This document shows, in pieces, positions 14,661-32,120 of a stretch of 64,000 nucleotides of DNA. The notes below the pieces were generated by a model. That model was not told where the DNA came from. It did no database searches and saw nothing but the letters and a program-made list of their open reading frames with translations. Position 1 is the first letter of the stretch, and each line of letters starts with the position of its first letter. The position numbers and the translations under genes are program-made. The DNA comes from Cecembia rubra. Its GTDB lineage: Bacteria; Bacteroidota; Bacteroidia; Cytophagales; Cyclobacteriaceae. Location: positions 248,001 through 312,000 of the forward strand of contig NZ_PYGF01000005.1 of NCBI RefSeq assembly GCF_003014575.1. The letters are read 5' to 3'.

Positions 14661-14673
14661 AGTCTAAAAAAAG

Positions 14674-14748
14674 TGGAACTTGAGGGATTCGAACCCACGA
14701 CCTCTGCCCTGTCAAGGCAGCGCTCTAAACCAACTGAGCTAAAGTTCC
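14674..14748 (-). tRNA. tRNA-Val(GAC)
   Basis: The reverse strand folds into a complete cloverleaf. It has acceptor GGAACTT/AAGTTCC, a D-arm AGCTCAGTTGGTTTAGAGC, anticodon stem CTGCC/GGCAG around TTGACAG (anticodon GAC, bases 14711-14713), and a T-arm with GGTTCGAATCC. The discriminator is A, and CCA is not encoded. GAC reads the valine codon GUC (and GUU by wobble). Confidence 0.92.
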
Positions 14749-29983: not shown

Positions 29984-31207
29984 TTGAACCTTTCATTTTT
30001 TATAGCATCCAGGTATTTCCGCAGCAAGAAAAAGCGGAATTTCATCACCATCCTCTCCCGAATTTCCATGATTGGAGTTGCGGTAGGGACAATGGCTTTG
30101 GTGGTAGTTCTTTCTGTATTTAATGGTCTGGAGGATTTGGTCAGGGCACTTTATGCTTCTTTTGATGCCGAGTTGAAGGTGGAGGCTGCAATAGGCAAAT
30201 CCTTTGAAGTGGAAGACGCTTGGCTTAAATCCATCAATAATGTCGAGGGCGTAGAATTAGTGACAGAGGTAATTGAGGACAATGCCTTATTTAAATATAG
30301 GGATTATCAGCATCTGGCCCGATTGAAAGGTGTTTCTGGGAATTACCTTGATCATGGAAGGTTTGGAAGGGGCTACACTTGGGGAGAATTGGATTTAGGA
30401 ACAGTCAGTAGGCCCAAGGCCATCATTGGAAGGGGAGTTGGATTTTTCCTTTCTATGGACCTTGACAATGAATTTGAAATGCTTCAGGTATTTTATCCCA
30501 AAGCCCCAAGAAGTGCAGGTACGATTGATCCTTCCCAACTATACAATAGTGGTTTGCTCCGTCCATCAGCCTTTTTTAGTGTGGACAAGGAATTTGATGA
30601 CAATTATATAATTGCACCTTTGGATTTTGTTGCAGGGTTATTGAATTATGGATCCAAAAGGACTGCACTTGAAATCAAAGTAAGAGATGGAGAAAGCATT
30701 CAAAGAGTAAAAAAGAGGCTAAGGGAACATTTAGGAGAAGGGTTCACTGTGAAAGATACAGATGAACAGCATGCCGGTTTATTACGGACAATTAAGATAG
30801 AGAAGCTTTTTGTATTCATTACATTGAGTTTTATCCTGGCGGTGGCTTCATTCAATATCTTTTTTTCATTGTCAATGATGGCTATTGAAAAAAAGAAGGA
30901 TAATGCAATTTTGTTTGCAATTGGAGCCAGGGAAAAATTGGTGAAAAGGATCTATATTAAGCAAGGTGCGATTATTGCTTTTACAGGAGCATTTATAGGT
31001 CTTATTTTAGGGTTTTTGTTAGTTTGGGCCCAGGATACCTTTGGATTGGTTTCTTTGGGCATAGCTTCCTCGGTCATTGAGAATTATCCGGTAAAAATGG
31101 TTTGGACTGACTTTTTATGGACGAGTGTGACCGTAATCGCAATCACTTTTATTGCATCTTACAGGCCGGCAATGATTGCTTCCAGAGTAAAGCCTAATGA
31201 GCTATAA
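29984..31207 (+). CDS. LolC/LolE-type ABC transporter permease (FtsX/MacB family)
   Basis: The 407-aa protein starts at TTG 29984. Layout: TM1 near residue 35 (GVAVGTMALVVVLSVFNGLED, typical of LolC/E), a large periplasmic domain (about 60-270), then three TM helices. FSLSMMAIEKKKDNAILFAIGA and the end RPAMIASRVKPNEL are family signatures (the IASxRKPxEVL-like box). LolC/E works with LolD ATPase to pass lipoproteins from the inner membrane to LolA, and this genome encodes many lipoproteins. No ATPase gene is adjacent. It is followed by a hairpin terminator. Confidence 0.87.
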   Translation: MNLSFFIASRYFRSKKKRNFITILSRISMIGVAVGTMALVVVLSVFNGLEDLVRALYASFDAELKVEAAIGKSFEVEDAWLKSINNVEGVELVTEVIEDNALFKYRDYQHLARLKGVSGNYLDHGRFGRGYTWGELDLGTVSRPKAIIGRGVGFFLSMDLDNEFEMLQVFYPKAPRSAGTIDPSQLYNSGLLRPSAFFSVDKEFDDNYIIAPLDFVAGLLNYGSKRTALEIKVRDGESIQRVKKRLREHLGEGFTVKDTDEQHAGLLRTIKIEKLFVFITLSFILAVASFNIFFSLSMMAIEKKKDNAILFAIGAREKLVKRIYIKQGAIIAFTGAFIGLILGFLLVWAQDTFGLVSLGIASSVIENYPVKMVWTDFLWTSVTVIAITFIASYRPAMIASRVKPNEL

Positions 31208-31210
31208 TAA

Positions 31211-31241
31211 AAAAAGCCGTGAAACAAAATCTCACAGCTTT
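31211..31241. terminator. Hairpin terminator between the permease and the tRNA-like genes
   Basis: The stem AAAGCCGTGA / TCACAGCTTT has one mismatch. A-rich DNA on the left gives a U-tract for the minus strand, so it can end the tRNA-like transcript as well as the permease mRNA. Confidence 0.75.
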
Positions 31242-31272
31242 AGTCAATTAACAATAAACCCAAAATAACCAG

Positions 31273-31397
31273 CTGTAGGAGAAGGATTCGAACCTCCACG
31301 GGGCAGTTAGGAAAGAACACGAGCTCCATGTTCGCTTTATTCCGGATTCCCCACCCCCGAGACAGGAGGGCATGTCTGCCAGTTTCAACATCCTACA
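31273..31397 (-). ncRNA. tRNA-like RNA with a 56-nt structured variable region (copy 1)
   Basis: The 125-nt reverse-strand element has a 7-bp acceptor TGTAGGA/TCCTACA (8 bp if the flanking C-G is counted), a Leu-like D-loop AAACTGGCAGA, an anticodon stem CCCTC/GGGGG around CTGTCTC, and a T-arm GGAGG-TTCGAAT-CCTTC. Between anticodon and T arms lie 56 nt that fold as GGGG/CCCC, CGG/CTG and a hairpin GAACATG/CGTGTTC. The D-stem here has one mismatch (TTG/CAT). The anticodon would read GUC (Asp), but the class II shape, U at position 37 and discriminator G do not fit tRNA-Asp. CCA is not encoded. It may be a variant tRNA or a tRNA-like regulatory RNA. Confidence 0.7.
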
Positions 31398-31451
31398 GTA
31401 TAAGAATTTCAATTATTTGAAAGCCGTTTGCTTCCTTTTGATTTTTTCATG

Positions 31452-31576
31452 CTGTAGGAGAAGGATTCGAACCTCCACAGGGCGGTTAGGCAAGAACACG
31501 AGCTCCATGTTCGCTTTATTCCGGATTCCCCACCCCCGAGACAGGAGGGCATGTCTGCCAGTTTCATCATCCTACA
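31452..31576 (-). ncRNA. tRNA-like RNA with a 56-nt structured variable region (copy 2)
   Basis: This tandem copy has the same 125-nt length as 31273-31397 and lies upstream of it in the transcript. It differs at only a few positions in the structured parts. The D-stem is perfect (ATG/CAT). The variable stems pair as GGGG/CCCT (wobble) and CGG/CCG, where copy 1 has CCCC and CTG, so the changes keep the pairing. A -7-like TAACTTTG lies on the minus strand at 31617-31610, about 33 nt before the 5' end. The pair is probably one transcript ending at the hairpin 31211-31241. Confidence 0.72.
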
Positions 31577-32120
31577 GTGTGATAAGACCTTTCGTCTTGT
31601 TTGATGATTCAAAGTTAATAAAAGCTTATTAAAATTAAAAATAATTCAACAAAAATGATAAAAAATTACAGTTTAAATAATTAAACGTTTGTTTAGATGA
31701 TAAAAAGGTAAAACAGGGTTGGCATTGAGTCGTTCTATTGAAAACTTTTCAATTCAGATCCCAATCAAAAAAAATGGGGTGAAAGCCCGGAAAAATTCAA
31801 TTCTTAAACTGTTGTTTTTTTGCGATGGGATGAAAGACAAAATGAAATACTCAAAACTCAAAAAATGTGGTGTAAGATGGATAAAAGATATAATAAAAAG
31901 TATATTGTAAATTGATAAAAATCAATTTACGTTTAAAACAGCCCAAAAAAATAGGAATAAATTCATTAGTTTGTTTAATTTAAACTTATAAAAAGCATAA
32001 TTTTTTTCAATTATTTTTGTATTTGATTATTAAAAAGGGCATATTTATTGCTATTAGTCGAGTGTTGTCAACAGTGTAGATTGACTAGGTATAAAATTAG
32101 TACAAATTCACCTATAGCCG
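31577..32120. other. AT-rich intergenic region with a perfect inverted repeat
   Basis: No convincing gene was found in these 540 bp. At 31907-31930 is a perfect 10-bp inverted repeat GTAAATTGAT / ATCAATTTAC with an AAAA spacer, which could be an operator or a small hairpin. The right end should hold the promoter of the coiled-coil protein gene at 32121. Confidence 0.55.

Follow-up and report, generated by a model that had tools for sequence, protein, structure and literature searches.

We found that two 125-nt tRNA-like elements of Cecembia rubra, lying in tandem on the minus strand, are members of a previously uncatalogued RNA family which, judged by sequence and covariation, is spread across Bacteroidota. 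The elements lie within the 64,000-nt stretch of DNA that we analysed, hereafter the window. Sequence analysis revealed (i) a structured body; (ii) an invariant tail; (iii) promoter and terminator signals; (iv) linkage and co-occurrence with a gene for an AsnC-type regulator; and (v) boxes upstream of start codons that are both enriched and conserved. The best reading is that the locus probably encodes a base-pairing small RNA (sRNA) with a tRNA-like head, which would tune amino-acid and acyl catabolism. The original prediction, made from the letters of the window, had proposed a non-canonical tRNA or a tRNA-like regulator, and this is the best class. Its other suggestion, a decoy for a synthetase, found no positive support. 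The observation was correct and understated: beyond it lie a family that spans the phylum, an AsnC-type gene head-to-head with the array, a tail that does not vary and the matching start-codon boxes, which point to a base-pairing regulator.

The sequence, coordinates and strand of the two copies were predicted correctly, and the acceptor, D, anticodon and T arms, along with the 56-nt insert and its three helices, were found in both (Table 1). We infer from the sequence that the locus is a single transcription unit in which a promoter is followed by both tRNA-like bodies, a C-poor tail of 33 nt and an intrinsic terminator. A terminator was sought on the minus strand of the spacer between the copies, and none was found. 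The promoter motif TAnnTTTG occurs no more than 100 nt upstream in 54 of 67 homologous arrays, whereas 200 shuffle sets averaged 8 such arrays and never exceeded 17. An own promoter and an intrinsic terminator, as expected of an sRNA, are thus present as sequence signals. The genome holds a third full copy, 86% identical, at C8:188336-188461. About 420 bases before it, a fragment-like match proved to be a small complete tRNA-like fold. This mini tRNA-like gene at C8:187857-187952 (L005) comprises an acceptor, one hairpin and a T-arm, followed by the invariant tail and a terminator. A genus-mate (G001) likewise has a mini tRNA-like gene.

Table 1. Features of the tandem tRNA-like locus, in window coordinates.
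Feature	Position	Strand	Remarks
Bacteroidota-type -7 promoter element TAACTTTG (TAnnTTTG)	31610..31617	-	33 nt upstream of copy A
tRNA-like copy A, T1 to G73	31452..31576	-	125 nt, running 31576 to 31452; predicted to be transcribed first; tail absent behind this copy
Anticodon-like arm, copy A	31533..31549	-	loop CUGUCUC; 35-38 UCUC nearly fixed, 33 and 34 variable among relatives
56-nt variable region, copy A	31477..31532	-	GGGG/CCCT stem, CGG/CCG stem, conserved internal loop AUAAA/CUAA, distal hairpin; covariation
Spacer, copy A to copy B	31399..31450	-	sequence
tRNA-like copy B, T1 to G73	31273..31397	-	125 nt, running 31397 to 31273; last of array
56-nt variable region, copy B	31298..31353	-	sequence and covariation
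Invariant tail GGUUAUUUUGGGUUUAUUGUUAAUUGACUAAAG, core AUUUUGGGUUUAU	31238..31270	-	core complementary to start-codon boxes; proposed sRNA seed
Intrinsic terminator AAAGCTGTGA...TCACGGCTTT and T-run	31206..31241	-	stem varies in relatives, pairing kept

A BLAST search with a 127-nt query matched 205 of the 245 genomes of the GTDB family, in 75 of 84 genera and often in 2-4 copies. We then built a covariance model from 27 copies. It found clear members in 33 of 40 more distant genomes of the family, with a wide score gap to the next-best matches, which were ordinary tRNAs of 84-88 nt that we take to be tRNA-Leu. Members were also present in 170 of 241 genomes of the order. In a sample of the phylum, 34 of 345 genomes had members at E<1e-15, among them families from other orders and a single family from another class. 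This covariance search over Bacteroidota, which the original prediction had suggested, recovered conserved copies with compensatory changes. The largest array we noted comprises about eleven near-identical tandem bodies (G146, C1:3333193-3335033; L220, L317).

ARAGORN called no tRNA at the locus, its sole call in the window being a tRNA-Val at 14673-14748. Rfam likewise gave nothing at gathering scores at the locus, and up to an E-value of 5 returned just trivial T-loop and snoRNA fragments. For tmRNA (RF00023), the match was merely an 11-nt T-loop of 5.8 bits against a gathering score of 47, and a tag reading frame was not recognised. YrlA had no match at E-values up to 5 in the locus, or up to 0.5 in eight relatives. 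We also considered Flavo-1, a Bacteroidetes motif from a 2010 catalogue of candidate structured RNAs, and set it aside, as Rfam holds this motif and gave no match here. A literature search for tRNA-like RNAs in Bacteroidota or Cytophagales, or with AsnC, found nothing matching. The original prediction held the RNA to be undescribed and named a match to a known Rfam or tRNA family as evidence to the contrary; neither program produced such a match at the locus.

We assessed the fold by covariation in two sets, one of 27 close homologues and one of 87 homologues. Among the close homologues 95.8% of cells pair and 11 of 35 pairs change on both sides, giving 47 double-changed cells compared with 16.5 +/- 3.2 in shuffles and no more than 7 in shifted pairings. 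In the set of 87, whose alignment was fitted to the model and is hence biased in its favour, double-sided changes affect 17 of 34 pairs (249 cells versus 64). Much of the covariation sits in the variable-arm helices. Selection on structure, which had been proposed from two copies that alone would not prove it, is thus borne out among relatives. Single-sequence folding of the two copies was unremarkable (z of -1.5 and -0.8), and because these values are not significant we dropped it as evidence in favour of covariation.

The body keeps a constant tRNA core, with a 3-bp D-stem, GG in the D-loop and a TTCGA T-loop, and shows a cloverleaf with the D/T-loop contacts A14, G18G19 and TTCGA. Its arms follow an arrangement of 7 acceptor and 5 T pairs. 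Of 81 sequences, 7 have a base at position -1 that does not pair with G73, and the others have C or U there. An eighth pair, C/U-1:G73, is therefore conceivable, but some relatives show A.G at this place, so that 7 bp plus discriminator G73, as in the original prediction, is the best reading of the acceptor. G73 is followed by C(A/T), and CCA is not encoded. Across the family, the variable arm combines a fixed 5' stem and a fixed internal loop (AUAAA/CUAA) with a distal hairpin that differs among lineages in sequence and in length, being only a few base pairs in some and a long domain in others. A common variable-arm motif, GGGUUGACCACYAAACUUUG, is present in addition in many lineages. Three loci (L055, L271 and L287) carry inverted-repeat insertions, for example TCCCGATAGCTATCGGGA, which either sit in the bulge of the variable arm or take the place of part of the D-arm. 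We considered the palindromic GAGCTC loop as a possible dimerisation site, and a possible pairing of the tail with the body's AUAAA/CUAAC loop.

The anticodon loop reads CNNUCUC, in which positions 33 and 34 vary (TG, GG, TT, TC, TA, GA) and U37 is fixed. The marks of a decoding tRNA, namely U33, a purine at 37 and a fixed anticodon, are thus lacking, and established tRNA rules do not allow a decoding tRNA to have variable 33/34 together with U37. On this sequence evidence, the bodies cannot work as ordinary decoding tRNAs. The original prediction had noted that an apparent GUC (Asp) anticodon conflicts with the class II shape, U37 and discriminator G; the loop does not decode as Asp.

After the last copy of the array lies a tail, GGTTATTTTGGGTTTATTGTTAATTGACTAAAG, and then the intrinsic terminator, whose call spans 31241-31213. 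The tail is identical in 30 of 30 genomes recovered by the body alone, and identity falls to about 40% beyond the terminator. Its pattern occurs once in the window, with none expected by chance. A public genome search for the exact pattern returned 109 stretches, and the named records belong to Cyclobacteriaceae or Cytophagales. By a simple filter, 82 tails follow a full body and 40 do not, a few of the latter being full bodies missed by the filter or cut by a contig end. Most of these 40 follow small tRNA-like structures of 60-100 nt that have in common only the acceptor stem and T-arm; we folded eight such heads, and they form an acceptor, hairpins and a T-arm. We considered the tail as a short reading frame (LVILGLLLID*), which is unlikely given its full nucleotide invariance. 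More distant members have related but different tails, for example TTGGGTTAA in some genomes; the tail is not seen behind every array, and its sequence differs between lineages. On the sequences compared, support for a function of the tail is limited to close relatives.

The tail core, UUUUGGGUUUAU, is perfectly complementary to a box, AUAAACCCAAAA, that is enriched just upstream of start codons in the same genome, and several of the best antisense sites of the core in a genome scan sit at start codons of catabolic genes. A scan of this genome with a longer tail core and 2 mismatches was at background overall; what proved informative were its top matches, k-mer counts and the conservation among orthologues. 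In the start regions of 887 genes (1.13 Mb), the most enriched tail-complement segments lie around TAAACCCAAAA. The clearest of them, AACCCAAA, was observed 17 times versus 5.1 expected, ranks first among 56 permutations and has a peak confined to -40..0, where 17 occurrences compare with 0-4 in each of the remaining bins. No such peak is seen for the reverse complement of AACCCAAA. Other A/C-rich motifs, AACCAACTA and TTAACCCA, are enriched before start codons too. Hence enrichment alone is not proof, and part of the signal may be general. We note that start regions on contig C1 hold the enriched motifs AACCAACTA, CCTTAACCC and TTAACCCAA, which are possibly sites of other regulators. Predicted duplex energies of the tail with start regions were better than those of all 98 shuffled tails, but mid-gene and upstream windows scored well too: they reached -15 kcal/mol or better in 89 and 88 genes, versus 128 genes for start regions.

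Genes bearing the box include those for 4-hydroxyphenylpyruvate dioxygenase (HPPD), thiolase, arginase, acyl-CoA dehydrogenase, phosphoenolpyruvate (PEP) carboxykinase and 3-oxoacid CoA-transferase A/B (SCOT A/B), together with less related genes. We examined HPPD and SCOT orthologues from 30 genomes, genes picked because our genome had the box. All 13 of 13 relatives that carry the invariant tail have the box, (U)AAACCCAA(AA), ahead of HPPD at a distance of about 8-16 nt from the ATG, while its flanks drift. It is also present in one genome with an GGGTTTAT tail (G014), and most genomes with other tails are without it. With automatic ORF calling, tail-bearing relatives had the box at 11 of 11 HPPD and 13 of 30 SCOT A/B genes, versus 2 of 77 other ORFs in the same loci; genomes with other tails had it at 2 of 7 HPPD and 1 of 10 SCOT genes. 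The background in other named loci was 5 of 552. A conserved seed and conserved complementary target sites, as expected of a base-pairing sRNA, are thus both found.

A gene of the AsnC/Lrp family adjoins the array in 25 of 41 sampled loci, from many families and two classes. Wherever both were mapped, gene and array are divergent (head-to-head), with about 120-210 bases between them; in one of the 25 (L335) the RNA was missed by a simple pattern, and protein and RNA search results still place the pair head-to-head. The protein is nearest E. coli AsnC (PDB 2cg4), and we use "AsnC-type" loosely because its NCBIfam score of 175.5 bits is below the equivalog cut-off of 227. Among the 345 genomes, the RNA is present in 34 of 37 with the regulator versus 0 of 308 without it, and all 34 genomes with the RNA have the protein at E<=3.4e-52, where the E-value line separating it from paralogues (<=48% identity) was drawn after seeing the data and the counts ignore relatedness. 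Three genomes (G256, G462, G578; L348, L365, L364) have the AsnC-type gene with the RNA not detected, and by eye their divergent strand keeps a tail-like stretch and a terminator. A gene family recurring beside the AsnC-type gene looks like sufB, and the neighbours like other SUF iron-sulfur genes, assignments that we presume from sequence (L308, L310, L311, L313, L318-L320, L328, L330, L333). Because this family recurs in those loci, the order RNA-asnC-SUF looks conserved.

In C. rubra itself the arrays do not adjoin asnC; a tail-like element with a plain hairpin does. Here and in four other genomes, the strand divergent from asnC carries a hairpin, an invariant element AAGTTATATTTGGGTTTATATTC and a terminator, without a tRNA-like body. 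This element has the same TTTGGGTTTAT core as the tail, and its match to the boxes of acyl-CoA dehydrogenase and thiolase extends over 14-15 nt; by sequence it is a probable sibling small RNA with a common seed. Since its hairpin is plain, the tail does not strictly require a tRNA-like head. In C. rubra the element lies at C2:96517-97280 (L349, L373) and consists of an AACTTT hairpin, TTATATTTGGGTTTATATTC and a terminator; it is also present in L347 and L350-L352.

We weighed several other explanations. If the gene were simply an ordinary tRNA whose arm is unusual, or a tRNA pseudogene or relic that was duplicated by chance, the cloverleaf and the two related tandem copies would be accounted for. 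We regard this as very improbable: positions 33/34 vary and U37 is fixed, tRNA calls are absent at the locus, covariation and phylum-wide conservation exclude decay, and the genome has ordinary tRNAs elsewhere, including two normal tRNA-Asp(GUC) genes. Several dispersed and tandem copies per genome might instead reflect a mobile or phage-borne tRNA-like element that spreads horizontally. We found no copies in plasmids or phages, and none in viral contigs by one 30-base pattern, and synteny with the AsnC-type gene is kept across families and classes, which leaves this idea with hardly any credibility.

The two remaining alternatives concern which part of the RNA acts. The locus could chiefly make the body, as a non-decoding tRNA that serves outside translation or acts as a sensor or sink for amino acids, perhaps serylated or leucylated in view of its class-II shape, G73 and Leu-like D-arm, with the tail a mere conserved trailer. 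Conservation of the body across the phylum where tails vary speaks for this, as do complete tail-less copies in the window and in relatives, arrays of up to ~11 copies that suggest dosage, the retained tRNA core features and an AsnC-type neighbour that fits an amino-acid theme. However, it leaves unexplained a 33-nt tail that is invariant in 30 genomes, the presence of that tail on unrelated tRNA-like heads and the complementary boxes, and we consider it possible, though on the unlikely side. It is less likely again that a protein or a different RNA reads the boxes as a regulatory motif, the tail match being coincidental or the tail a sponge for that factor. The further A/C-rich motifs at starts and the second element in the genome with the same core would fit, but the segment with the strongest enrichment falls on the core of the invariant tail, and HPPD boxes occur in GGGTTTAT-tail genomes and are mostly absent with other tails.

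In the base-pairing sRNA that we favour, each body adopts a class-II tRNA-like L-shape, has a variable arm that is large and structured, and is without decoding features. We propose that RNase P and a 3'-processing enzyme would recognise the acceptor/T-arm stack and mature the precursor, and the tail and terminator, freed or still attached, would act in trans as a small RNA. Its core would pair with the boxes just upstream of the start codons of catabolic mRNAs (HPPD, SCOT A/B, thiolase, acyl-CoA dehydrogenase, arginase and PEP carboxykinase), most likely lowering their translation. The AsnC-type, amino-acid-sensing regulator probably controls transcription of the RNA, which would link amino-acid supply to catabolism. 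Transcription, processing, pairing in cells, the sign of regulation, AsnC control and the reason for a tRNA-like head are what we infer in this scheme. The head plausibly recruits tRNA processing enzymes, by analogy with known systems, and the acceptor and T-arm kept in even the smallest heads are suggestive of release by such enzymes. Tail-less copies and phylum-wide conservation argue that the body has a role of its own. We tentatively suggest, as an unlikely extension, that the body is a sensor: amino-acid supply would charge or bind it, the AsnC-type regulator would set its amount, and charging or processing would decide release of the tail to silence catabolic mRNAs.

The family resembles known RNAs in part. 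With class-II tRNAs such as bacterial tRNA-Leu it shares the cloverleaf, 3-bp D-stem, D-loop GG, TTCGA T-loop and long variable arm, whereas here the variable region is mostly ~45-105 nt with a conserved internal loop, U33 is not conserved, 37 is U, 34 varies and tRNA models do not detect it. tRNA-Sec and allo-tRNAs have a class-II shape, a long variable arm and G73 with an 8/5, 8/4 or 9/3 acceptor/T arrangement; the RNA described here shares the first three and differs in its 7/5 arrangement and lack of a decoding anticodon. tRNA mimicry in a regulatory or rescue RNA is known from the tRNA-like module of the bacterial Y RNA YrlA and from tmRNA. Unlike these, our family has no above-threshold Rfam match and no recognised tag frame, and its 5' and 3' ends form the acceptor stem. 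Like trans-encoded base-pairing sRNAs, it has a promoter, a conserved unstructured seed, an intrinsic terminator and seed-complementary start-codon sites, and it differs from them in its often tandem tRNA-like 5' head and head-to-head AsnC-type regulator. In E. coli 3'ETS-leuZ, as proposed here, the regulatory RNA is the 3' trailer of a tRNA-type precursor, which acts there as an RNA sponge (PMC8166272). That trailer has a real tRNA head and sRNA targets (PMC8166272), in contrast to the non-decoding head of the present RNA and its predicted targets in mRNA start regions. The TMERs of murine gammaherpesvirus 68, in which a tRNA-like element precedes miRNA hairpins and is processed by tRNase Z, likewise rely on a tRNA-like head as the handle by which the regulatory RNA behind it is processed (PMC4838037). 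They differ in being viral, transcribed by polymerase III and sources of miRNAs (PMC4838037), and their sequence is unrelated to the Bacteroidota family.

A structured RNA that is Bacteroidota-wide and absent from Rfam would mark a notable gap in the RNA catalogue. For structural studies the family supplies a tRNA mimic whose variable arm is giant, and it also provides a regulator-RNA pair conserved across classes. It would also provide a bacterial parallel to the tRNA-like processing handles of viruses and to tRNA trailers. If the sensor reading were true, the locus would be an amino-acid-sensing circuit built on a tRNA-like head, with a logic unlike that of T-boxes, riboswitches or tRNA fragments. 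For a phylum whose small-RNA regulation is poorly known, the tail and its boxes make a concrete candidate for a post-transcriptional network of amino-acid and acyl catabolism.
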